Source: Lutimonas halocynthiae
GTDB taxonomy: Bacteria; Bacteroidota; Bacteroidia; Flavobacteriales; Flavobacteriaceae
Assembly (NCBI RefSeq): GCF_030409835.1
Contig: NZ_JAUFQO010000004.1
Location: 496,001 to 560,000, forward strand
Direction of reading: 5' to 3'
Length of the DNA stretch: 64,000 nucleotides
Shown here: in pieces, positions 39,489 through 51,480 of the stretch
Numbering within the stretch: position 1 is the first letter of the stretch
Layout of the letters: every line of letters begins with the position of its first letter
The notes under the pieces: model-generated
The model's input: the letters and a program-made list of their open reading frames with translations, nothing else
The model's database searches: none
Told to the model about the DNA's origin: nothing
Position numbers and translations under genes: made by a program

Positions 39489-40781
39489 TTACGAATTATG
39501 GGCGTTTGCTTTTTTCATCTTGGCTTTTATTCTATCCAAAGATAAATTCCCAACACTACCTATGTGTGTATGCACAACATCCTTATTCGGCATAAAACTT
39601 CCGTCTCCTACTTTTCCACCAACAATTTTGTAAGCATCTCTAAATGGAACACCATCCTGAACAAGTTTATTAACCTCTTCAACAGTAAACAAGTAGTCAT
39701 AAATCTTTTGGTCTACTATATGCTTATTTACCTGAATATTACTCAATGAAAATGTAAACATTTCCAAACATGATTTTAGCGCTTGAATAGATGGTATTAA
39801 GCCTTCCTTTAATAATTGCAAATCCCTGTGATAACCACTTGGAAGGTTATTGATAATCAAGGTTAGCTCAAAAGGAAGTGCCTGAATCTTATTACATTTC
39901 CCTCTTATGAGTTCAAAAACATCAGGGTTCTTTTTGTGCGGCATGATACTCGATCCGGTTGTTAACTCATCTGGAAAAGAAACAAATCCAAAATTCTGAC
40001 TCATATACAAGCAAATATCCATGGCAAATTTTGAAAGCGTACCAGCTATAGAACTCATTGCAAAAGCAACATTTCGTTCCGTTTTACCCCTGCTCATTTG
40101 TGCCGCAACAGAATTTACTTTTAACTCACAAAACCCCATCTCTTTTGTAGTAAAGTCACGATCTATCGGAAAAGAACTGCCGTAGCCAGCAGCTGAGCCC
40201 AATGGATTTTGATCCACAACGCGATAAGCGGCATTCAGCATGTATATATCATCGATCAAACTTTCGGCATAAGCAGAAAACCACATCCCAAAAGAAGAGG
40301 GCATGGCTACCTGAAAATGGGTGTAACCTGGTAACAAGTTGTTTTTATAGGATTCTGACAACTCCATCAAAAGATCAAAAAACCCGGTGATCAATCCCCT
40401 GATTTCTTTAATTTCATCTCTTAAATACAAATGGACATCCACCAAGACCTGATCATTTCTGGAACGGGCTGTATGTATTTTTTTACCTGTGTCACCCAAC
40501 TTTTCAGTAAGCATATACTCTACTTTTGAATGCACATCTTCAAATGATTCTTCAATGATAAAATCACCTTGCTGAATTAATGATATAATTGAAACTAATT
40601 CCTTTTCAACCAGCTTCATTTCATCGGCAGATAGTAAACCAATTTTATGGAGCATTTTAGCATGCGCCAAAGAACCAATTACATCGTATTTTGCGAGAAC
40701 CAAATCAAGCTCCCTGTCATTGCCAACGGTGAACAAATCTATTTTCTTGTCAGTACTAAATCCCTTATCCCATAATTTCAT
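39489..40781 (-). CDS. argH: argininosuccinate lyase
   Basis: The last step of arginine synthesis: splits argininosuccinate to arginine and fumarate. It is 430 residues with the fumarase-superfamily signature GSSIMPHKKNPDVFE and the VDVHLYLRDEI and GYTHFQVAMPSS segments; it is a little shorter than the roughly 457-residue enterobacterial enzyme. It lies 30 bases after argE. Confidence 0.96.
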   Translation of the reverse strand: MKLWDKGFSTDKKIDLFTVGNDRELDLVLAKYDVIGSLAHAKMLHKIGLLSADEMKLVEKELVSIISLIQQGDFIIEESFEDVHSKVEYMLTEKLGDTGKKIHTARSRNDQVLVDVHLYLRDEIKEIRGLITGFFDLLMELSESYKNNLLPGYTHFQVAMPSSFGMWFSAYAESLIDDIYMLNAAYRVVDQNPLGSAAGYGSSFPIDRDFTTKEMGFCELKVNSVAAQMSRGKTERNVAFAMSSIAGTLSKFAMDICLYMSQNFGFVSFPDELTTGSSIMPHKKNPDVFELIRGKCNKIQALPFELTLIINNLPSGYHRDLQLLKEGLIPSIQALKSCLEMFTFSLSNIQVNKHIVDQKIYDYLFTVEEVNKLVQDGVPFRDAYKIVGGKVGDGSFMPNKDVVHTHIGSVGNLSLDRIKAKMKKANAHNS

Positions 40782-40811
40782 AAATCCTTATTTTTCTTGT
40801 TTCTCACGAAA

Positions 40812-41870
40812 CTATAATATTCCTTTTAAAATTTTAATATATAGATCGATGCCTTCATCTATCTCATTTTCATAAATAAATTCATCTGCCGTATGAGACC
40901 TCAAGGAGTCACCAGGCCCTAATTTTAGCGAAGGGCAACTGAGGTTTGATTGATCAGATAGTGTTGGTGATCCATAAACTTCTCTCCCAAGAGCCATACC
41001 GGCTAAAACAACCCCGTGGTCTTTTGGAATAGATGATGAGTTCAAATTAAGTGATCTTTCTTTGACCTCGACTTCTACATGTTCTTTTACAAGATCTAAT
41101 ACTTCTTTGTTTGAATAAAGATCATTAACCCTGACATCTACTACAAAATGACATGTTGATGGCACTACATTGTGCTGATTCCCTGCCTCAATCTGAGTAA
41201 CTGTCATTTTAGTGTCGTGTAATGTTTCCGATACTTTTGGAAATTTAAAACTTTCAAACCATTTGATGGCTTTCATCGCCTTGTAAATCGAATTATCGCC
41301 TCTTGAATGCGCTGCATGACCTGCGGTTCCATGGGCATAACAATCAAGTACAAGCAATCCTTTTTCGGCAATGGCCAATTGCATGAGTGTAGGCTCCCCA
41401 ATAATAGCAAAATCTATCTCGGGCAACTTGGGTATCATTGAACGAATACCTTTATTACCTGAATTTTCTTCCTCAGCCGAAGCTAAAAGTATCAAATTAT
41501 ACTTGAGCCCTTTTTGCTTGTAGAAATGCTTAAAAGTGGCTATAAGTGATACCAAACACCCTCCTGCATCGTTAGACCCCAATCCAAATATTTTACCTTC
41601 TTCTATCTCACACTTATGAGGATTTCTGGTATAACCCTTATTAGGTTTGACAGTATCATGATGTGAATTCAATAAAATACTGGGTTTCGAATCATCAAAA
41701 TCTTCATTCAAGGCCCAGATATTGTGTTGATCTCTTTGATAAACGATATCCTCAACCTTTAGAAATTCTTCTATCAGGCTTGCAGTACCCTCTTCTTCAC
41801 CTGAAAAAGAAGGCGTGTTAATCAAATCAATCAACAACTGTTTTGCTTTTTTGCTCAAGTCAGTTATCAT
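40812..41870 (-). CDS. argE: M20-family N-acylornithine/N-acylcitrulline deacylase
   Basis: A 352-residue zinc M20 hydrolase in the ArgE position. Metal-binding motifs are LNSHHDTVKPN, GSNDAGGC, and SAEEENSG with the catalytic Glu pair. In the ArgF'-type pathway the natural substrate would be the N-acylated citrulline rather than N-acylornithine. Its ATG overlaps the argB stop codon by 4 bases (ATGA). Confidence 0.93.
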   Translation of the reverse strand: MITDLSKKAKQLLIDLINTPSFSGEEEGTASLIEEFLKVEDIVYQRDQHNIWALNEDFDDSKPSILLNSHHDTVKPNKGYTRNPHKCEIEEGKIFGLGSNDAGGCLVSLIATFKHFYKQKGLKYNLILLASAEEENSGNKGIRSMIPKLPEIDFAIIGEPTLMQLAIAEKGLLVLDCYAHGTAGHAAHSRGDNSIYKAMKAIKWFESFKFPKVSETLHDTKMTVTQIEAGNQHNVVPSTCHFVVDVRVNDLYSNKEVLDLVKEHVEVEVKERSLNLNSSSIPKDHGVVLAGMALGREVYGSPTLSDQSNLSCPSLKLGPGDSLRSHTADEFIYENEIDEGIDLYIKILKGIL

Positions 41871-42646
41871 AATGTAAGCATTGTATGTTTTATAGTTCTG
41901 TCTCTAATTAACTCCGTTTTACCAATAATCACCCTGTCAACCCCATTTTGCAGCGAATTAAAACAATTTTCAAGTTTTGGCAACATTCCTTCGTTTATGA
42001 CTCCTTCACTTTTCAGGAACGCATACGTTTCGCTGTTAATATTTTCAATTACCGATGCATCGTCCTCCACATCTTTGAGAACACCATTTTTTTCAAAACA
42101 ATAAATCAGTTCAACTTCAAAATCAGCAGATAAGCCTTTTGCTACTTCCGCTGCAATGGTATCAGCATTGGTATTCAATAACTGACCTTGTTTATTATGC
42201 GTGATAGCAGAAAAAACAGGTGTAATACCAGCATTTAAAAAAAGTGAAATTGTTTTGCTCTCCACTTCGTCTATGTCTCCGGCAAAACCATAGTCTATTT
42301 CTTTTACGATTCTTTTATGGGCTTTAATCACATTGGCATCTGCGCCTGACAAACCTAAAGCATTGCATGCTTTTGACTGAAGTTTTGCGACAATACTTTT
42401 ATTAAGTAAACCTGCGTAAACCATCGTAACCACTTCTAAATTTGCCTGATCAGTAACACGCCGACCACCAATCATTTTGGGTTCAAGACCCATGGAATCT
42501 GCAATTTCTGTAGCCTTTCTGCCACCTCCGTGTACTAATATCTTCAAACCTTGCAATTGGGCAAAATCAGCAAGAAAAGAATCAAGCTCAGTCTCGCTGT
42601 TGATCACATTCCCTCCAATTTTTATAATGCTAAGATGCTTTTTCAT
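41867..42646 (-). CDS. argB: N-acylglutamate kinase
   Basis: Second step of arginine synthesis, phosphorylating the gamma-carboxyl of N-acylglutamate. It is 259 residues, with IKIGGNVINS and VHGGGRKATEIA in the N-terminus and the GMLPKLENCF segment in the ATP-binding lobe. It sits 10 bases downstream of argF' and overlaps argE by 4 bases. Confidence 0.95.
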   Translation of the reverse strand: MKKHLSIIKIGGNVINSETELDSFLADFAQLQGLKILVHGGGRKATEIADSMGLEPKMIGGRRVTDQANLEVVTMVYAGLLNKSIVAKLQSKACNALGLSGADANVIKAHKRIVKEIDYGFAGDIDEVESKTISLFLNAGITPVFSAITHNKQGQLLNTNADTIAAEVAKGLSADFEVELIYCFEKNGVLKDVEDDASVIENINSETYAFLKSEGVINEGMLPKLENCFNSLQNGVDRVIIGKTELIRDRTIKHTMLTL

Positions 42647-42656
42647 AGTCTACATA

Positions 42657-43616
42657 CTACTTATTAAGATTCTCTAATATCTTTTTCAATACTAATTGGG
42701 CTGAAAAAGTTCGGTTATTGGCTTGCTCGATCACCAATGAATTTTCACTATCCAAAACAGCGTCTGATACAACAACATTTCTCCTTACCGGGAGACAGTG
42801 CATAAACTTAGCCGAATTGGTCAAAGCCATTTTTTCTTTACTGATGGTCCATGAAAGATCTTGATGGAGCACCTGACCATAATCATCAAATGAGCTCCAA
42901 TTTTTGGTGTAAATAAAATCAGCACCTATAAATGCTTTGTCCTGATCGTATTCTATTTGGCTATCATCTACAATTTCAGCATCCAACTCATAACCTTTGG
43001 GATGTGTAATCACAAAGTCAGCGTCTTGTTGCTGCATCATTTCAACAAAAGAATTGGCTACAGCATGCGGTAAAGCCTTAGGATGCGGAGCCCACGAAAG
43101 GACTACTTTTGGTTTTCTTCCCATTAAAGATTCCATTTGCTCATCCAGCGTTATGGCATCTGCAAGTGCCTGTAGCGGATGCCCGACAGAACTTTCCATA
43201 TTTACAATAGGAACCGAAGCGTGTTTTTTAAATCCATTCAATACAATTTCTGCCTTGTCTTTCTCCTTATCTTCAAGAGAAGCAAAAGCCCTTATGGCAA
43301 TAATGTCACAAAATTGAGAGATCACCTGAGCAGCTTCTTTAATATGTTCTGACTTGCCCTGATCCATTCGAATACCATCTTCATATTCCAGCGCCCAACC
43401 TTCTTTGTCAAAATTCATTACCATCGTGGTCATGCCAAGATTCTGAGCCGCCTTTTGGGTACTAAGTCTTGTTCTTAAACTTGGGTTAAAAAACAATAAA
43501 CCAATTGTCTTATTGGTTCCCAAGCTTTGATGTTTAAAAGGGCTTTGTTTTAATTCTCTGGCCTCTTTTACCCACTTATCTATGGAATCTATATCCTTCA
43601 CCGATACATAATTCAT
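42657..43616 (-). CDS. argF': N-acylornithine (probably N-succinylornithine) transcarbamylase
   Basis: Transfers carbamoyl to an N-acylated ornithine, unlike classical ArgF. It is 319 residues; the carbamoyl-phosphate loop is FFNPSLRTRLST (about residues 42-53), and the C-terminus has MHCLPVRRNVVVSD, the signature of the ArgF' branch rather than the HCLPA form of OTCase. The specificity loop reads DQGKSEH with Ser89. The equivalent residue is Pro90 in the Bacteroides succinyl enzyme and Glu92 in the Xanthomonas acetyl enzyme, so a succinyl substrate is more likely. It lies 2 bases after proB. Confidence 0.93.
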   Translation of the reverse strand: MNYVSVKDIDSIDKWVKEARELKQSPFKHQSLGTNKTIGLLFFNPSLRTRLSTQKAAQNLGMTTMVMNFDKEGWALEYEDGIRMDQGKSEHIKEAAQVISQFCDIIAIRAFASLEDKEKDKAEIVLNGFKKHASVPIVNMESSVGHPLQALADAITLDEQMESLMGRKPKVVLSWAPHPKALPHAVANSFVEMMQQQDADFVITHPKGYELDAEIVDDSQIEYDQDKAFIGADFIYTKNWSSFDDYGQVLHQDLSWTISKEKMALTNSAKFMHCLPVRRNVVVSDAVLDSENSLVIEQANNRTFSAQLVLKKILENLNK

Positions 43617-43618
43617 GA

Positions 43619-44407
43619 TTAACTATTTAAAATTTTAGTAAATGCTATTTGCTCATTCATGGCATTGAGAATAAAATTATCTCCTATACCATTTACAATC
43701 CAAGTTTCTATTTGCTCTTTTTTTAGTATTTCAGCCGCTTCAATCTTTGACTGCATACCGCCGGTTCCCTGAGAAGATTTCCCATCAATTACTTCTTTCT
43801 CCAAAGCCTTCAAATCTGTCACAGTTCGAATAGTCGATTTAACTTTTTCACCTATACTCTCTTTTGTATAGATTCCATCAGTGTTGGTTGCGATAATTAC
43901 CAGGTCAACTTCCATAAGTGCCCCGGTGAGCGCCGCCAATTTATCATTATCTCCAAATTGAATTTCTTCCGTTGCCACGGTATCATTCTCATTAATGATT
44001 GGGATATAAGAATTGTCTAGGAGCACGTTGATTGTGTTATAAATATTTTCCTTTGATTTATCTCTCTTAAAATCAGCATAAGAAAGCAAACACTGAGAGG
44101 TCAACAAACCTAATTCTCTAAAACTCTCCTGAAAGATACGCATAAGATGCGGCTGACCAATAGCAGCCAAAGCCTGCTTCACATTGATTTCTTTACCACT
44201 CGATTCCAATTTTACAAATTGTTTCGCCACTGCGATGGCACCTGAACTAACAATAATAAAATCATGGCTATCTTTTAGTTCAGATATTTGCCTGCCTATA
44301 TCTTCAATTTTTCCTCTAGAGATTTGATTAGTCTCTTTTGTCAAAGTATTGGTTCCTATTTTTAGAAGTACTCTTTTCTTATCTGATTTGTCCATTCCCG
44401 TATACAT
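43619..44407 (-). CDS. proB: glutamate 5-kinase (no PUA domain)
   Basis: First step of proline synthesis. It is 262 residues, containing the amino-acid kinase domain (LLKIGTNTLT, IIVSSGAIAVAKQF, INENDTVATEEIQFGDND, SQGTGGMQSKIEAAEIL) but lacking the roughly 100-residue C-terminal PUA domain of the E. coli enzyme. The start may be the ATG at 44407 (MYTG) or at 44395 (MDKSDKK). Either way it overlaps the 3' end of proA, implying coupling. Confidence 0.93.
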   Translation of the reverse strand: MYTGMDKSDKKRVLLKIGTNTLTKETNQISRGKIEDIGRQISELKDSHDFIIVSSGAIAVAKQFVKLESSGKEINVKQALAAIGQPHLMRIFQESFRELGLLTSQCLLSYADFKRDKSKENIYNTINVLLDNSYIPIINENDTVATEEIQFGDNDKLAALTGALMEVDLVIIATNTDGIYTKESIGEKVKSTIRTVTDLKALEKEVIDGKSSQGTGGMQSKIEAAEILKKEQIETWIVNGIGDNFILNAMNEQIAFTKILNS

Positions 44408-45575
44408 ACCATTTGTTAGTCACCAAATGTTGAAGACCAATAGGCCCTCTTTGATGTAATTTATCTGTACTAATTGCCAATTCACCTCCAAGTCCGAATT
44501 GAAAACCATCTGTAAACCTTGTCGATGCATTATGATACACTGCAGCTGCATCAACTGCACTTAAAAAGTAGTCAACTTCCTTTGTATTCTCAGAAACAAT
44601 TGATGCCGAATGACCTCCTCCATAGGTATTGATCATGTTAATTGCTTCGGATAGCGAATCTATACTTCCCATTAAAATCTTATAATCTAAAAACTCCTTA
44701 AACCATAAGGATTCATCCTGGTTTGCATCAACGCCTTCGAATTTTGACAGATCTCCTGAGGCTAAAACAGTCACCTTTTCCGCATTCAGTTTCTCGATTA
44801 ATTCCTTTACAAATAATTCATATCCAGGCAACGCAGTATCAATAAGCACCTTATCCAAAGCATTACAGGCTGAAATTTTTGCCGTTTTGGCATTGATAAT
44901 GATGTCAAGTGCCTTTGCTTTATCAGCGTCTCGCGCTACATAGACAAAATTATTTCCTCTGCCACTAACAATCACCGGGCAATTAGCGTGCTCCTTGACG
45001 AAGGCAATTAATTTCTCACCTCCTCTCGGAATAATCAAATCTATTTTTTGATCGGGTTTTCTTAAAAATTCTCTCGTTTTCTCTCGATTATAGTTTAAAT
45101 AAGTGACCCAATCTGAACTACAATTGTTTTCAGCTAATGCCCTATGCCATAAGGCAACTATAGAAAGATTTGAATTCAAAGATTCTTTACCTCCTTTAAG
45201 TAAAATTTTATTACCTGACTTAAAAGCTATTCCTCCCGCTTCAATAGTCACATCAGGTCTCGATTCATAAATAATCATGATCGTTCCAAATGATGCCGTT
45301 TTATTATATATCTCTAGGCCGTTATCGTGTGTAAAATGAAATCTTTCTACTCCAACGGGGTCGTCCTGACTCTCCAATTGTTCAAGTGACAGCACCATGC
45401 CCTCAATTTTCTCCTCATCCACCTTTAATCGATCATACATGGCTAAGTCATTCTTATCAAATGCCTCCATATCCAATGCATTGGCCTGTAAAATGCTTTC
45501 TTTTTCTTCATCAACCAATCTTGCCATACTAAGCAGCACAGCGTTTCTTTGGTCTATTGTTAGCATTGTTTCCAT
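44379..45575 (-). CDS. proA: glutamate-5-semialdehyde dehydrogenase
   Basis: Reduces gamma-glutamyl phosphate to glutamate semialdehyde, using the product of ProB. It is 398 residues; the catalytic Cys is in AKISACNALDKVL, and NADP-binding IYESRPDVTIEAGGIAFKSGN and LIIPRGGEKLIAFV are clear. It overlaps proB by up to 29 bases. Confidence 0.95.
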   Translation of the reverse strand: METMLTIDQRNAVLLSMARLVDEEKESILQANALDMEAFDKNDLAMYDRLKVDEEKIEGMVLSLEQLESQDDPVGVERFHFTHDNGLEIYNKTASFGTIMIIYESRPDVTIEAGGIAFKSGNKILLKGGKESLNSNLSIVALWHRALAENNCSSDWVTYLNYNREKTREFLRKPDQKIDLIIPRGGEKLIAFVKEHANCPVIVSGRGNNFVYVARDADKAKALDIIINAKTAKISACNALDKVLIDTALPGYELFVKELIEKLNAEKVTVLASGDLSKFEGVDANQDESLWFKEFLDYKILMGSIDSLSEAINMINTYGGGHSASIVSENTKEVDYFLSAVDAAAVYHNASTRFTDGFQFGLGGELAISTDKLHQRGPIGLQHLVTNKWYVYGNGQIR

Positions 45576-45579
45576 TCTT

Positions 45580-46734
45580 TTAAATTCTCGTTTCTTTATT
45601 GGTAATTTTAGTCAATACCCGTTTTAATGCTTCTACAAAACTGTCAATTTCCTCTTTTGTAACTGAAAGCGGTGGTAATATTCTCAATAGATTTGGATCA
45701 GCTGATCCTCCAGTAAAAATACCTTCCTCAAAAATCAATGCCTTCCTCATCTCAGATACAGGGAAATCAAACAAAACACCTAACATCAATCCCTTTCCTT
45801 TAATTGATATGATCCCATCAACTTCCTTTATTCTTTCTAAAAAATGAGAAGAAACCGTATTTACATTCTCCATTAATGACTCCTCTTCAATAACATTCAA
45901 TACAGCATGCCCTGCCGCACAGGCCAGGTGATTCCCACCAAAGGTAGTACCTAGCAAACCATAGGATGCTTTGATACGATTAGAAATAAGAATCCCTCCT
46001 ATCGGAAAACCATTTCCCATCCCTTTTGCCATACTGATGATATCAGGCTGAATTCCATGATGTTGAAATGAGAAAAATTTCCCACTTCTCCCATAGCCCG
46101 ACTGAATCTCGTCAAGGATAAGCATAGCGCCATATTGCTTGCATAATCTTTCTAAATCCTGGAAGAAAGCTGTAGAACCTTGATTCAAACCTCCTACTCC
46201 CTGAATTCCTTCTATAATGACCGCAGCCACATCATTTTTAAGCAACTCTTTTTCTAATAATTCCGCATCATTTAATGGGAGAAAAACAACCTCTTGCTGA
46301 CTGTTTATTGGCGCGTTTATTTTTTTGTTATCGGTGGCTGCAACGGCGGCAGATGTTCTACCGTGAAAAGCCTTTTCAAAGGCAATTACTTTGCTTTTTC
46401 CCGTTTCAAACGAAGCCATTTTTAAAGCGTTTTCATTCGCCTCTGCTCCTGAATTACACAAGAACAAATTATAGGCTTCGCATCCAGAAACCGATCCAAG
46501 CTTTTCCGCAAAAGATACTTGCAACGGGTTCTTTATAGAATTGGAATAAAACCCCATTTTTTCCACTTGATCGCGTATCGCTGAAACGTATTGTTCATGC
46601 GAATGACCGATGGAAATCACGCCATGACCTCCATAAAGATCCAGGTATTTCTTCCCATGATTATCGTACACATAACATCCTTTCGCTTTTTCAGGCGTCA
46701 CATCATACAAAGGATAAACATCAAATAATTCCAT
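45580..46734 (-). CDS. argD: N-acylornithine aminotransferase
   Basis: A class III PLP aminotransferase that converts N-acylglutamate semialdehyde to N-acylornithine. It is 384 residues, with CNSGAEANENALKMA (PLP phosphate site), LILDEIQSGYGRSG (cofactor Asp), and SMAKGMGNGFPIGG (PLP Lys). In this setting it should act on the succinylated or acetylated intermediate. It lies 10 bases after proC and 4 before proA. Confidence 0.93.
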   Translation of the reverse strand: MELFDVYPLYDVTPEKAKGCYVYDNHGKKYLDLYGGHGVISIGHSHEQYVSAIRDQVEKMGFYSNSIKNPLQVSFAEKLGSVSGCEAYNLFLCNSGAEANENALKMASFETGKSKVIAFEKAFHGRTSAAVAATDNKKINAPINSQQEVVFLPLNDAELLEKELLKNDVAAVIIEGIQGVGGLNQGSTAFFQDLERLCKQYGAMLILDEIQSGYGRSGKFFSFQHHGIQPDIISMAKGMGNGFPIGGILISNRIKASYGLLGTTFGGNHLACAAGHAVLNVIEEESLMENVNTVSSHFLERIKEVDGIISIKGKGLMLGVLFDFPVSEMRKALIFEEGIFTGGSADPNLLRILPPLSVTKEEIDSFVEALKRVLTKITNKETRI

Positions 46735-46744
46735 ATGCCTGTTC

Positions 46745-47542
46745 TTAAATCTGATTAATTTTTTCGTAGGACGTTACCAAGCCTTTAATGATCGATGAAC
46801 TTAAACCTTGATGCTCCATCTCATTTAAGCCTTCAATCGTACAGCCACTTGGTGTGGTCACCTTGTCTATTTCTTGTTCAGGATGACTTTGAGAATCTAT
46901 TAGTAAACTTGCTGCTCCTAAACAGGTCTGCATTGATAATTTTTGGGCTTCCTCACTATGAAAACCTAGCTGTACAGCTCCCTGGGTGGTAGCTCTTATC
47001 AATCTCATCCAAAAGGCAATACCACTTGCGCAAATAACAGTTGCTGCCTGCATGAGACTCTCATCAATACACATGGTTTCGCCCAAGGCATTAAATATGC
47101 TCTTGGCAATATGAAAATTCTCCTTTCCTTTTTCATTCGCGCTGATACAGGTCATTGATTGACCAACAGAAATAGCCGTGTTCGGCATACATCTGATTAC
47201 CGGCACATCCTTTTTAACCATGGCTTCAATTTCCTCTATCTTTCTTCCTGTTGCTACAGAAATAATAGTGTGTTTTTTAGGATCAATCAGGTCTTGAATC
47301 TCCTCTAGCACCTCCATCAATTGGGCAGGTTGAACAGCTAGGATAATCACGTTTGAATACTTGACCGCTCTCCTGTTATCATCAGTTGTCTTGACAAGTG
47401 ATACTTTTTCAAAATGGCTGAGTGAAGCAGTATTCCTCTTGGTCAAATACAAAGATTTACAATTAATTTCTTTCTTCTGGCTCAGAATACCTACTGCTAT
47501 TGAGTAGCCCAAGTTTCCCACTCCTATAATGGCTATTTTCAT
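46745..47542 (-). CDS. proC: pyrroline-5-carboxylate reductase
   Basis: Last step of proline synthesis. It is 265 residues, with an N-terminal Rossmann motif IGVGNLGYSIAVGIL, VIRCMPNTAISVGQSMT, and the C-terminal DKVTTPSGCTIEGLNEME signature. With proA and proB it makes the full proline route inside the arginine operon. Confidence 0.94.
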   Translation of the reverse strand: MKIAIIGVGNLGYSIAVGILSQKKEINCKSLYLTKRNTASLSHFEKVSLVKTTDDNRRAVKYSNVIILAVQPAQLMEVLEEIQDLIDPKKHTIISVATGRKIEEIEAMVKKDVPVIRCMPNTAISVGQSMTCISANEKGKENFHIAKSIFNALGETMCIDESLMQAATVICASGIAFWMRLIRATTQGAVQLGFHSEEAQKLSMQTCLGAASLLIDSQSHPEQEIDKVTTPSGCTIEGLNEMEHQGLSSSIIKGLVTSYEKINQI

Positions 47543-47551
47543 GTGTTCGTT

Positions 47552-48529
47552 TTAAAAAAAGTTAGCTTTTAGTTTAAGACCTTCTGCCTGGTTAAAACCG
47601 AACATAAGGTTCATATTTTCAATGGCCTGACCCGAGGCCCCTTTCAATAAGTTATCAATCGCACTTGTGACGAGCAACTTGTCTTTGTGTATTTGAAGAT
47701 GTATCAAACATTTATTCGTATTAACCACCTGTTTTAAGAATATCTCTAGATCAGATACATGGGTAAACATGGCCTCTTTGTAAAAATCTTTGTACAAATT
47801 TTTTGCCTCTTCAATACTCCCATCAAATTTGGTATAAGCCGTCGCAAAAATTCCCCTGCTAAAATTACCTCTGTTAGGAACAAAATTCACCTCATGGTCA
47901 AAACCTGGCTGAAGGATTTCAATATTTTGATTAATTTCTCCCAGATGCTGATGGTTAAAAGCCTTATAGTGAGAAAAGTTATTGTCTCTCCAAGTAAAAT
48001 GTGTTGTTTTTGACAAGGATACTCCTGCTCCGGTTGCGCCCGTAACGGCGTTGACATGGATATCATCTTTCAACAAAGAGGCATCTGCCAACGGAAGCAA
48101 TCCTAATTGTATCGCCGTTGCAAAACAGCCTGGATTAGCGATATATTGTGCTTTACTGATCTCTTCTTTAAACACTTCGGTCAAGCCATAGACAAACTTT
48201 TTATTCATAAAAAAACTGTCTTTGGTCAACCTGAAATCATTACTGAGATCGATAATTTTGGTCTTATCACTAAATTCATTCTCCTTTAAAAAAGCTGAAG
48301 AATTTCCATGACCCAGGCATAAAAATAAGACGTCAATATCAGGGTTAACTTCACTGTCAAACTTCATATCGGTATCACCCAAAAGATCCCGATGCACTTC
48401 TTGAATTTCATTTCCGGCATTTGATGTGCTATAAATGAAATCCAATGTAACTTTGGAATGATTCAGAATCAACCTTATCAGTTCTCCAGCTGTATAGCCA
48501 GCTCCTCCTATTATGCCTGCCTTGATCAT
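47552..48529 (-). CDS. argC: N-acyl-gamma-glutamyl-phosphate reductase
   Basis: Third step of arginine synthesis. It is 325 residues, with NADP-binding GIIGGAGYTAGELIRLI and the catalytic Cys in YIANPGCFATAIQLGLLPL. It lies 2 bases after argG and 9 before proC. Confidence 0.95.
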   Translation of the reverse strand: MIKAGIIGGAGYTAGELIRLILNHSKVTLDFIYSTSNAGNEIQEVHRDLLGDTDMKFDSEVNPDIDVLFLCLGHGNSSAFLKENEFSDKTKIIDLSNDFRLTKDSFFMNKKFVYGLTEVFKEEISKAQYIANPGCFATAIQLGLLPLADASLLKDDIHVNAVTGATGAGVSLSKTTHFTWRDNNFSHYKAFNHQHLGEINQNIEILQPGFDHEVNFVPNRGNFSRGIFATAYTKFDGSIEEAKNLYKDFYKEAMFTHVSDLEIFLKQVVNTNKCLIHLQIHKDKLLVTSAIDNLLKGASGQAIENMNLMFGFNQAEGLKLKANFF

Positions 48530-48531
48530 TT

Positions 48532-49713
48532 TTATGAATTTACGTGGTTATAAATTTTACCCTGATTCGAAGTAATTTTAATAAACCCTTTAGCATCTTC
48601 AGCTGTCCATCCTTCATTTGTTTCACCGTAACTGGCAAAAGATGAGCTCATCAAATCATGCGCTGATGAAATTCCGTTAAGGGTGAACCTATAAGGGTGC
48701 AACGTAACAAAAACATCTCCATTTACATTTCTTTGTGTGTCTTCCAAAAAGACTTCGATATTTCTCATCACCTCATCCAGATACTGACCTTCATGTAATA
48801 ACATTCCATACCAATTCCCTAATTGCTCCTTGTGATGTTGTTGCCATTTAGTAAGCGTGTGTTTTTCAAGTAAGTGATGGGCTTTGATGATCACTAGTGG
48901 CGCGGCTGCTTCAAACCCAACCCTGCCTTTGATTCCAATAATCGTATCTCCAACGTGTATATCTCTGCCAATGGCATAAGCTGAAGCCAACTTTTCCAAG
49001 GCTTCAATATTGTTAACATGGCTATCCTTTTTACCATTAACGGCAATTAATTCACCCTTTTCAAAAGTTAGTTTTACATCACTTGGGTCGTTTTTTGTCA
49101 ATTGACTTGGATAGGCTTCACTTGGCAATCCGGCATGCGATGTTAAGGTTTCTTCACCTCCAACACTAGTGCCCCACAGGCCTTTATTAATTGAATACTT
49201 GGCTTTTTCCCAAGGTAAGTCAACACCATTCTCCTTTAAAAAATCAATCTCAGTCTGTCTTGACAATTTATAATCTCTAATGGGAGTAATAATCTCAATT
49301 TCCGGAGCCAAGGTTTGGAAAATCATATCAAACCTGACCTGATCATTACCTGCTCCGGTACTACCATGGGCTATGTATTGAGCCCCAACTTTTTTAGCAT
49401 AATTAACGATTTCAATCGCCTGAACAATTCTTTCAGCGCTCACTGAAAGCGGATACGTATTGTTTTTGAGTACATTACCATAAATCAAATATTTCACAAC
49501 CTTATTGTAGAAGGTTTGAACGGCATCTATCGAAGTGTAGCTAGTCGCTCCCAATTGAACCGCTTTCTCTCCGATTGAAGCAATTTCTTCTTTTTCAAAT
49601 CCTCCTGTGTTGACACTTACAGCATGCACTTCAAATCCTTCAACCTGCGAGAGGTATTTTGCACAGTAAGAAGTGTCTAAACCTCCACTATATGCCAATA
49701 CTAATTTTTTCAT
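48532..49713 (-). CDS. argG: argininosuccinate synthase
   Basis: Joins citrulline and aspartate using ATP. It is 393 residues, with the PP-loop LAYSGGLDTSYC at the N-terminus and AHGSTGAGNDQVRFD. It is the second structural gene of the operon, 62 bases after the GNAT gene. That gap shows no clear internal promoter. Confidence 0.96.
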   Translation of the reverse strand: MKKLVLAYSGGLDTSYCAKYLSQVEGFEVHAVSVNTGGFEKEEIASIGEKAVQLGATSYTSIDAVQTFYNKVVKYLIYGNVLKNNTYPLSVSAERIVQAIEIVNYAKKVGAQYIAHGSTGAGNDQVRFDMIFQTLAPEIEIITPIRDYKLSRQTEIDFLKENGVDLPWEKAKYSINKGLWGTSVGGEETLTSHAGLPSEAYPSQLTKNDPSDVKLTFEKGELIAVNGKKDSHVNNIEALEKLASAYAIGRDIHVGDTIIGIKGRVGFEAAAPLVIIKAHHLLEKHTLTKWQQHHKEQLGNWYGMLLHEGQYLDEVMRNIEVFLEDTQRNVNGDVFVTLHPYRFTLNGISSAHDLMSSSFASYGETNEGWTAEDAKGFIKITSNQGKIYNHVNS

Positions 49714-49775: not shown

Positions 49776-50402
49776 TTATTTGTTCTTAGTCTGGTCTTTC
49801 TTTTTCAAAAACAAGCTCTGCTTAATTCTTTTTAGTCTGCTCAAACTTTTAGAATTATAAGGATGTTCCTTTTTTTTATCTTTTTTCCCGTCATATAACA
49901 TTCCCGTGCAAAGACACATTTTCTTGTCTGTTCGTTGCAGCACATCATAATTAGTGCATGTCTGACAACCCTTCCAGAATTCAGGATCATCTGTTAACTC
50001 AGAAAATGTAACTGGCTTATAACCCAATTCATAGTTGATCTTCATGACGGCCAGCCCTGTGGTAATGCCAAAAATTTTCGACTTAGGATACCTTTTCTGA
50101 GAATACTCAAAAACCTTTGTTTTTATCTTTTTTGCCAATCCTTGATTTCTGAAATCAGGGTGTACAATTAGACCTGAGTGAACAACAAAATTCTTATCAC
50201 CAAAAGTTTCGATATAACAAAAACCAGCAAATTTCTCACCTTCCAGGGCGATAACAGCATTGCCGCTTTTTATTTTCTTTTCAATATACTCGGGAGTTCT
50301 TTTGGCAATACCGGTCCCTCTCTGTTCTGCCGACTTATCAATCGTTTGACTGATTTTAATGGCGTATTTAATATGTTTATCTGTAGCAATTACAATTTCC
50401 AT
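49776..50402 (-). CDS. GNAT acyltransferase heading the arg operon, candidate N-acylglutamate synthase
   Basis: A 208-residue protein from the ATG at 50402 (MEIVIATDKHIKYA); a longer frame from 50471 reads through the upstream hairpin and is unlikely. The GNAT acyl-CoA motif is HPDFRNQGLAKKIKTKV (about residues 81-97). A cysteine cluster follows at residues 146, 149, 163 and 165 (GCQTCTNY and MCLCTG), then a Lys-rich tail. No argA or argJ homologue is present in the operon, and this gene is first in it, so it is the natural candidate for making N-acetyl- or N-succinylglutamate. Direct proof is lacking. Confidence 0.75.
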   Translation of the reverse strand: MEIVIATDKHIKYAIKISQTIDKSAEQRGTGIAKRTPEYIEKKIKSGNAVIALEGEKFAGFCYIETFGDKNFVVHSGLIVHPDFRNQGLAKKIKTKVFEYSQKRYPKSKIFGITTGLAVMKINYELGYKPVTFSELTDDPEFWKGCQTCTNYDVLQRTDKKMCLCTGMLYDGKKDKKKEHPYNSKSLSRLKRIKQSLFLKKKDQTKNK

Positions 50403-50448
50403 TGTATTGAAATAAAGTAAGTTTTTGAAATAGAATAAAGATTGTGCA

Positions 50449-50468
50449 GAGATGGACTCACCTATCTC
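50449..50468 (-). promoter_or_regulatory. hairpin just upstream of the GNAT gene
   Basis: Minus strand GAGAT-a-GG, loop TGAGT, CC-ATCTC: a 7-bp stem with one bulged A. It is followed by the U-rich TTTATTCTATTTC, which could act as a weak terminator or hold back translation. One arm touches the long-range repeat at 50468-50475. Confidence 0.5.
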
Positions 50469-50475
50469 CAATAAT
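50468..50475 (-). repeat. distal arm of 8-nt long-range inverted repeat in arg leader
   Basis: Plus-strand CCAATAAT here is the exact reverse complement of ATTATTGG at 50619-50626, which overlaps the stop codon of the first leader frame. In RNA the two could pair across the second leader frame, in competition at its edge with the hairpin 50449-50468. It is AT-rich, so pairing would be modest. Confidence 0.4.
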
Positions 50476-50483
50476 ATAGAATA

Positions 50484-50493
50484 CCCTTACGGG
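50484..50493 (-). promoter_or_regulatory. GNRA-loop hairpin at stop codon of second arginine leader
   Basis: Minus strand CCC-GTAA-GGG: a 3-bp all G-C stem with a GUAA (GNRA) tetraloop. Its loop contains the stop codon of the 29-residue leader frame. A ribosome waiting at the preceding arginine codons would cover it. Confidence 0.45.
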
Positions 50494-50576
50494 CGACGGC
50501 GAGAAATACGAACAACATTAATCGAAGTTTGACTTTTATAAACTTTTATCGTTCTTAAATTGTTCTGAAAATGCAT
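50487..50576 (-). CDS. arginine-rich leader peptide 2 (29 residues)
   Basis: A complete ATG-to-TAA frame of 29 residues ending VRISRRRP: five Arg, four of them in the last seven residues, encoded CGT, CGC, CGT, CGC. The ATG has A at -3 and -6, the usual Bacteroidota context, and no Shine-Dalgarno site. It ends 84 bases before the GNAT start. Rare arginine codons clustered just before a stable hairpin and the first arginine gene match the design of amino-acid leader peptides. Other reading frames here (an ATG at 50519 reading LFVFLAVARK) look less meaningful. Confidence 0.65.
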   Translation of the reverse strand: MHFQNNLRTIKVYKSQTSINVVRISRRRP

Positions 50577-50619
50577 TGTAATAAATTGAAATGTGAATTG
50601 AAAAATTGATCTAACCTAA

Positions 50620-50691
50620 TTATTGGCCTAAGCGGCGCAAGGGGCGGCGGCGATTCTCTCTATCTGTAGTATGTAGCGTTTTCGTATTCAC
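50620..50691 (-). CDS. arginine-rich leader peptide 1 (23 residues)
   Basis: A GTG-to-TAA frame of 23 residues containing ENRRRPLRRLGQ: six Arg, five of them CGC. Upstream an in-frame TAA limits the start to this GTG. It shares the RRRP run with the second leader although the surrounding peptide differs, which argues for selection on the arginine codons. The stop codon falls within one arm of the long-range repeat. The non-ATG start and short untranslated region lower confidence. Confidence 0.5.
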   Translation of the reverse strand: MNTKTLHTTDRENRRRPLRRLGQ

Positions 50692-50778
50692 CCTGCAATA
50701 TTACAATATTAATTCATTCTGAAAAAGAAAACATTCAACATTTTTCAATCAAAATCAAAATCTATTGAGAATCAACCA

Positions 50779-51480
50779 TTATTCGAGCTGGTTTTTAATT
50801 GTTTCTCTTACAGAATTAACAATTTCTTTAACTTCTGAAACCTCCATATTTAATATTGAAGCAATTTCATGAAAGCTTAATTTACCTAAAATATACAAGT
50901 CAACTATATTTGACGTATTCACCGGCAGTTTATAATAGACTTTACGCAAGGCATTTCTGTCACTCTTTTCTTGGAAAGTTTTTATCTGGTCTAAACCCAA
51001 AAAAGTTTTAACTCCTTCTTCTGATTCGTCATATGGCAATTCTTTTGGCCCGCCATTCTGCTGATGGTAAGAAATGTCATCAAGGTCTTCATTCATGATC
51101 AAATCATTTCCTGCATCAGAAGTAAAATTCTCTTCAAGTTGCTTTAATTCTTCTTCAAGAATCAATTTGGTGCTAATAGAATCTTTGTGCCAGGCTTCAG
51201 ATTTGAACAAGGCTGACATTCTAGTATTTAGAAAAGCAAACATGGCCATTCTTAGTTCTTCTGCGTCCTTAGATTTATGCAATCCCTTTTCATAGACTTC
51301 CAATACAACTTCATCAATAATTTCACTTGATTTATACATATTCCTTGGGAAATAGCCTAGCCTCTCTCCCACTCTGATTCGCTGTTTTGAATAAGGGTGA
51401 AGTAAATGAACAATGGTCAATGTTTTTTTTTCTGGATTTTGGCTGGAATTCGATTTTAGTGAAGTCATTATCATCGGCAT
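50779..51480 (-). CDS. divergent sigma-70-like (ECF-type) protein
   Basis: A 233-residue protein. The N-terminal half (YFPRNMYKSSEIIDEVVLEVYEKG and AFLNTRMSALFK) resembles sigma region 2; a low-complexity acidic linker follows; the C-terminal LPVNTSNIVDLYILGKLSF-HEIASILNM segment is a helix-turn-helix like sigma region 4, ending SVRETIKNQ. It is a divergent member with no anti-sigma gene beside it. The start is uncertain: ATG codons at positions 1, 3 and 5 are all possible. It ends 88 bases before the arginine leader, so read-through into that leader is possible. Confidence 0.6.
   Translation of the reverse strand: MPMIMTSLKSNSSQNPEKKTLTIVHLLHPYSKQRIRVGERLGYFPRNMYKSSEIIDEVVLEVYEKGLHKSKDAEELRMAMFAFLNTRMSALFKSEAWHKDSISTKLILEEELKQLEENFTSDAGNDLIMNEDLDDISYHQQNGGPKELPYDESEEGVKTFLGLDQIKTFQEKSDRNALRKVYYKLPVNTSNIVDLYILGKLSFHEIASILNMEVSEVKEIVNSVRETIKNQLE

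Follow-up and report, generated by a model that had tools for sequence, protein, structure and literature searches.

An arginine-rich leader precedes an arginine/proline operon

We analysed a 64,000-nucleotide (nt) stretch of the Lutimonas halocynthiae genome (contig NZ_JAUFQO010000004.1, positions 496,001 to 560,000; hereafter the window), in which an AT-rich intergenic gap leads into an arginine/proline operon on the minus strand. The operon has 11 genes (GNAT, argG, argC, proC, argD-like, proA, proB, N-acetylornithine carbamoyltransferase, argB, argE-like and argH-like), not the ten counted in an initial annotation of this DNA, which had rightly placed it directly behind two short arginine-rich frames. 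Judging from the close spacing of its genes, the operon is probably transcribed as a single unit. The two frames, here named uORF1 and uORF2 for upstream open reading frame (ORF), translate as MNTKTLHTTDRENRRRPLRRLGQ and MHFQNNLRTIKVYKSQTSINVVRISRRRP, respectively, and agree with that annotation in position, length and Arg codons; the GC peaks described at both frames inside the gap were likewise found. Comparison among relatives places the conserved core of this leader in uORF2 together with two hairpins, H1 and H2, which had been missed.

uORF2 is conserved as an arginine-coding frame

A search for the GNAT protein, the product of the operon's first gene, matched 38 of 60 genomes; from the 475 relatives in a named collection, the best 80 loci were used. 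Upstream loci numbered 249, repeat genomes included, and removal of copies at least 80% alike left 136 non-redundant Flavobacteriaceae loci; one of these, L274, has no codon anchor and was left out of the codon counts. The uORF2 frame ran through 19 codons without a stop in 135/135 loci, compared with 34 and 41 loci for the other two frames. Arg accounted for 12.3% of uORF2 codons versus a mean of 6.5% in Markov copies (maximum of 200 runs, 7.9%) and was concentrated in the last eight codons, and the residues other than Arg drift. The anchor is defined as CGC followed by C or A and then C, which itself dictates the last Arg codon, so that only the codons before it are informative. The Arg codon preceding the one paired in H1 begins with C in 134/135 loci and has G second in 128/135, with T (93), C (36), A (4) or G (2) in the third position. 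This third-base drift with C and G kept argues for selection on the amino acid outside the hairpin.

Among the named loci, the motif GGTGNGTCC was present in 78 of 80, the two exceptions being Lutibacter, and nearly all uORF2 frames end in Arg-Arg-Pro-stop (RRP-stop). The relatives' alignment reads CGC CGY CGC CCG TAA GGGT, where Y is C or T; behind this come a linker rich in A and T and a hairpin whose loop is constant. Conservation of the Arg-coding frames with synonymous drift in relatives that carry the same operon, which the initial annotation had proposed as the check on its idea, was thus observed. Proline was dismissed as a second sensed amino acid, as its 8.4% share of uORF2 exceeds the null values (mean 6.4%, maximum 8.0%) too slightly.

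The leaders are written in codons that neighbouring genes avoid. Nine of the 11 Arg codons in the two L. halocynthiae frames are CGC or CGT and the other two AGA, as had been pointed out, and across relatives CGT and CGC make up 372/444 Arg codons of uORF2 (the H1 codon excluded) and 235/293 of uORF1. By contrast, these two codons account for 14.2%, and AGA for 55.7%, of the 657 Arg codons in 51 long non-overlapping ORFs of the window, and CGC and CGT for 26.6% of 3609 Arg codons in the ORFs flanking the 80 named loci. Of 36 transfer RNA (tRNA) matches, 30 were typed; they include Arg tRNAs with the anticodons tct, cct, tcg and acg, and we take CGC and CGT to be decoded by the acg species. The codon bias of the leaders fits selective tRNA charging as described in PMC1183508. 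Because it uses codons that the genes around it avoid, the leader provides a ready-made test of such selective charging.

uORF2 ends in a conserved two-hairpin module

In H1, the final Arg and Pro codons of uORF2 pair with GGGU, and the stop codon sits in the loop. H2 follows; its stem of six pairs is topped, beyond a bulged A (or a UA that shifts the stem by one position), by two apical pairs and a UGNGU loop. The end of H1 lies 19-21 nt from the GG of H2 in 106/132 loci. By these comparisons, both hairpins have been retained with little variation in their spacing, whether to one another or to the Arg codons.

Pairs were counted on a structure that we named ourselves, in an unfitted alignment of 49 sequences (A1) and in one of 99 sequences, 98 of them distinct, that was fitted to a covariance model and leans towards the model structure (A2); the stem counts mix two registers of H2, with one or two bulged bases. 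Two-sided changes occurred at 8/13 pairs in A2, and its covariation score was 0.274 compared with 0.136 in shuffled alignments (0/500 as high) and 0.03-0.11 when the structure was slid. A1 scored 0.233 against 0.131 shuffled. In H2, 7/8 pairs changed on both sides among the 98 distinct sequences, and 87.2% of cells were paired. Its loop is nearly invariant on this covarying stem, and the inner apical pair, almost always G-C, is A-U in L134, L135 and L263 and U-A in L319. Taken together, the sequence comparisons support H2 strongly and H1 modestly.

Several other roles for H2 were considered. It was rejected as a DNA operator, given the covariation of its arms and the asymmetry introduced by the bulge. 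A general module shared with other operons was also discarded: AGGTGNGTCC occurs ten times in the L. halocynthiae genome (three times in a backward control), and, by eye, the other nine sites show no H2-like stem, which is present only at the arg copy. Pairing of the 3' arm of H2 with the GNAT start, an idea suggested by L010 and L014, was no better than in shuffled sequences (4.72 versus 4.82 over 71 loci; positive control, 6.35 versus 5.15). No family in Rfam, which covers RF01692, the T-box and known riboswitches, reached its gathering score in the window, and the leader gave only chance matches.

Table 1. Features of the leader region and operon, in positions of the window.
Feature	Position	Strand	Basis
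233-residue protein 5' of the leader	50779..51480	minus	no Pfam match at E 0.01
Promoter-like -7 element TAATATTG	50696..50703	minus	4 nt 5' of the uORF1 GTG; same element in relatives
uORF1, 23 codons, GTG start, RRRPLRR	50620..50691	minus	translation; placed frame in relatives; synonymous changes
uORF2, 29 codons, ATG start, ends RRRP-stop	50487..50576	minus	translation; frame kept; synonymous drift
H1, GCCC-GUAA-GGGU hairpin	50483..50494	minus	pair counts, modest covariation
H2, GGAGAU-A-GG-UGAGU-CC-AUCUCU hairpin	50448..50469	minus	pair counts, covarying stem
Untranslated stretch from H2 to the GNAT start, G-poor in relatives	50403..50447	minus	base composition
GNAT acetyltransferase, first gene of the operon	49776..50402	minus	ATG at 50402, the start common to relatives
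Remaining arginine/proline operon, argG to argH-like	39489..49713	minus	close-set genes

The leader occurs in two layouts

uORF1 lies directly behind an element resembling TAnnTTTG, which we take to be the Bacteroidota promoter consensus and on which our promoter-like label and the presumed transcription starts are based. When searched for without requiring Arg, a start codon 3-6 nt 3' of such an element was found at the expected place in 65/136 loci. The frames that begin there are mostly 20-24 codons long, and 53/65 end 157-177 nt 5' of the GG of H2. Arg makes up 21.6% of their residues, with at least three Arg in 56/65, so that a uORF1 of this kind is present in 56/136 loci, or about two fifths; a search that did require Arg gave 68 candidates, 58 of them with the promoter-like element. 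Among Lutimonas relatives, the RRRP block of uORF1 shows synonymous exchanges of CGC, CGT and AGA. In three loci (L009, L011 and L016), a Met-Lys-Arg-stop mini-frame, possibly a decayed uORF1, stands behind the promoter-like element at this place.

A strict TAnnTTT(G/A) element 2-9 nt 5' of an in-frame uORF2 start was found in 42/79 loci without uORF1, as opposed to 2/56 with it. The placement of the element in the two groups suggests that, in either layout, the transcript begins close to its first leader frame, and uORF1 may be leaderless. Two leaders in series, which the initial annotation had called unusual, are not peculiar to L. halocynthiae: as the loci compare, the family has two recurrent layouts, uORF1 with uORF2, or uORF2 alone and often right behind the promoter-like element.

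The module accompanies the arginine operon in Flavobacteriaceae

The covariance model of the H1-H2 module, which eases annotation of the element in other genomes, was run on 395 genomes of the phylum and on 299 genomes of Flavobacteriaceae. All 16 phylum matches better than 1e-6 were in Flavobacteriaceae and 5' of the GNAT gene; a further 16 genomes gave weak matches, and the nine of these loci that were inspected were judged to be chance. Within the family, the module was found in 183 genomes, GNAT in 197 and both in 180, the module's position 5' of GNAT being read for fetched loci only. Three of the 102 genomes lacking GNAT matched the module, of which G640 and G562 were judged real and G674 chance. 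In two of these three, the module stands 5' of another GNAT gene followed by argG (L193 and L194), indicating that the module is tied to the arginine operon rather than to a particular acetyltransferase. The L. halocynthiae genome holds a single strong copy, the next match having an E value of 0.26.

Some loci depart from this arrangement. Two genomes with GNAT (L189 and L190) have a different upstream region, in which neither H1 nor H2 is recognisable. In two Lutibacter loci (L088 and L091), the module is replaced by the frame MKIYKLNTTVLTPPPTFRMRRIVR directly behind the TAATATTG element, and this Arg/Pro frame is followed, some 60 nt 5' of GNAT, by a GC hairpin whose tail is rich in U. A hairpin with a U-rich tail in the module's place suggests that a terminator can substitute for it.

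A ribosome-read arginine sensor is the favoured explanation

Arginine genes are commonly under the control of the repressor ArgR. The model of its DNA-binding domain (PF01316) matched none of 31 genomes, L. halocynthiae included and 16 of them of high quality; a control search was positive in 9/14 genomes, Bacteroides ihuae among them. As no match to the ArgR model was found in the 31 genomes, the leader becomes a candidate for the arginine control that would otherwise be missing from Flavobacteriaceae. The proposal that both frames sense arginyl-tRNA charging is strengthened by this result, by the conservation of the frames, by their CGC/CGT bias and by the acg tRNA; the output of trp and his leaders cannot simply be assumed along with it, because H2 is not followed by a U-tract. 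At least five T in the eight positions 3' of H2 occur in only 2/136 loci, on which ground H2 was rejected as a terminator, and a consensus terminator scan of the leader region in the window found none. As in trp and his attenuators, a frame with codons for the product amino acid lies between the presumed promoter, placed by its consensus, and the operon; no helix alternative to H2 was found, there being no pairing signal between H2 and the 240 nt upstream (four windows) in a test that detected its positive control.

We propose the following sequence of events. Once the tRNA-Arg decoding CGU and CGC has lost its charge, ribosomes would stall on the Arg codons of the leader, with uORF1, immediately 3' of the promoter, serving as an early sensor. 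If a ribosome stalled at the end of uORF2, H1 would be held open, a ribosome sitting there evidently excluding the hairpin by its bulk alone, and unhindered translation would end in ribosome release, upon which H1 would close beside H2. The state of H1 and H2 would then determine whether the transcript is continued or kept, which is the weakest step of the chain. Because H2 has no U-tract, we think the most probable output is that, within the G-poor stretch 3' of H2, the transcript is terminated prematurely in a Rho-type manner or attacked by an RNase. Over 136 loci, the 40 nt behind H2 contain 5.0% G and have a C over G skew of 0.52, compared with 13.3% and 0.07 before 24 ORFs of the window. 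After Rho-type termination and RNA decay, we would rank a weak terminator formed by H1 and a factor that binds H2.

Arginine sensing by ribosome stalling at the leader is, in our judgement, very probable. The whole chain, in which a ribosome-read sensor in the 5' leader acts through a Rho-type or RNase output, is less secure than sensing alone, and we put its probability at roughly 0.6. A broader generalisation is tentative and would not win an even bet: that Flavobacteriaceae share an arginine module without a recognisable ArgR, in which one or two leaderless or near-leaderless Arg leaders feed into the hairpin pair, and a putative protein, an RNase or a polymerase pause reads H2 in the terminator's stead. 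A leader peptide combined with a conserved hairpin that lacks a U-tract would point to another output mechanism.

Several observations weigh against the proposed sensor. Covariation in H1 is modest, with 1/5 pairs changed on both sides (in 4/98 sequences) and 91.6% of cells paired, and its outer pair is broken in 31/97 sequences. One slid version of A1 reaches a score of 0.171, and RNAalifold retains only six pairs of A2 (four in H1 and two apical pairs of H2). A search that required four or more uninterrupted stem pairs did not detect H2 in 12/139 loci, or 20/249 in another count; in L010, L012, L013, L014 and L017, H2 is present with a mismatch. The module match is missing in 17 of the 197 genomes with GNAT, seven of which were read: G542, G689 and G513 retain a recognisable variant of H1 or H2, and G079, G568, G603 and G649 do not. 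In L024, L248 and L256, the stop within H1 is absent and uORF2 continues into H2, ending there at a loop TGA or at a TAG before it, an arrangement that release at H1 leaves unexplained. The G-poor stretch behind H2 may be only an open translation start region. Finally, a terminator-like hairpin with at least six T of eight was found in 24/136 loci, compared with 0.4% of shuffled copies, and 19/20 of the terminator-like matches listed are H1 with its linker.

Alternative explanations

The excess of terminator-like hairpins over shuffled copies keeps a weak terminator at H1 as a real rival. H1 would then be a short intrinsic terminator whose U-rich linker ends transcription unless a ribosome stalled on the Arg codons holds the hairpin open, and H2 an accessory such as a pause hairpin. 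The linker behind H1 does average 3.8 T in eight positions, and in the Lutibacter loci the module gives way to a GC hairpin and U-rich tail. However, 112/136 loci fail the terminator test, H1 has just 4-5 pairs, and the trp leaders of the same genus have a far stronger GC hairpin followed by 7-8 T in 4/4 loci tested. As the strong conservation of H2 would also be left unexplained, we consider this reading unlikely.

Less likely still is that H2 itself, with its bulged A, two apical pairs and UGNGU loop, is the main regulator as the binding site of a protein or ligand, the leader peptides being a second input. A nearly invariant loop on a covarying stem, the compensating changes of the apical pair and the single strong copy in the L. 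halocynthiae genome, where the other AGGTGNGTCC sites lack a stem, would all be expected of such a site. H2 has few conserved unpaired bases for a ligand pocket, though, and the kept Arg codons and the spacing of H1 would go unaccounted for.

We regard it as highly improbable that uORF2 encodes an arrest peptide, of which TnaC and the fungal arginine attenuator peptide are types, sensing free arginine at its Pro-stop end. Most uORF2 frames do end in RRP-stop, but this end is exchanged with H1 still paired in five loci (RRT-stop in L250; RRTFVRV or RRTSVRV in L265 and L253; RRPYPRL in L079 and L271), and the residues except Arg drift. A chance origin of both leaders can be set aside: short frames occur in any gap (11 of at least 20 residues overlap 50300-50900), but the conservation of uORF1 and uORF2 in relatives refutes it.

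Comparison with known leader peptides

In the open-access literature, scanned mostly by title, we recognised no leader peptide on a Bacteroidota arginine biosynthesis operon, nor did we find described a leader-peptide output through a factor-read hairpin in the terminator's place. The available parts of PMC8632094 and PMC4833913 likewise yielded no arginine leader. Clues to leader peptides have been reported for amino-acid operons of F. psychrophilum, with elements named at pheA and hisG and, in the text available, none for arginine (PMC9723704); leader-like short frames are mentioned in Bacteroides thetaiotaomicron (PMC7366714), and carA of P. aeruginosa has a leader peptide (PMC4997734). The initial annotation knew of no arginine leader of this kind. 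Leaders with Arg codons that respond to arginine are in fact established, namely orf34 before Salmonella speF and rbfL of Staphylococcus aureus (PMC6386406; PMC13009471), and that statement holds in so far as neither precedes an arginine biosynthesis operon.

The Bacteroid-trp leader RF01692 occurs in the same phylum and genus and likewise has a frame with codons for the product amino acid behind a TAnnTTTG-like element (PMC2864571, PMC6414381). Unlike the arg leader, it has a strong GC terminator with 7-8 T in the four loci of the Lutimonas genus that were tested, and it has no H2. In L155-L158, LNTWWWSL or HTWWWSL frames stand behind TATAAATTTG and are followed by a GC hairpin and 7-8 T; a trp-type attenuator and the arg module thus coexist within one genus. 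Two leader peptides within one leader are known from ermBL/ermBL2, which is induced by erythromycin, acts translationally and does not sense an amino acid (PMC8274638). The candidate cys leader peptides of Mycobacterium resemble the arg leader in a run of regulatory codons near the stop; they have no conserved terminator, and their authors suggest Rho. They differ in amino acid (cysteine) and phylum (Actinobacteria), with no conserved hairpin reported in the part available (PMC1262725).

The rbfL peptide detects a shortage of arginine by way of codons that a single Arg tRNA reads, as we propose here, but it has two Arg codons (AGA and AGG), blocks the adjacent rbf ribosome binding site and represses upon starvation (PMC13009471). 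The orf34-speF leader resembles ours in having a short frame with consecutive Arg codons and a hairpin at the stop codon; it responds to arginine, as we propose for ours, and has no intrinsic terminator (PMC6386406). It differs in controlling a polyamine gene, in having one frame and no H2, and in its unrelated sequence (PMC6386406). Rho and RNase outputs behind two Arg codons have been demonstrated for orf34-speF, a precedent that supports the output we favour here (PMC6386406).
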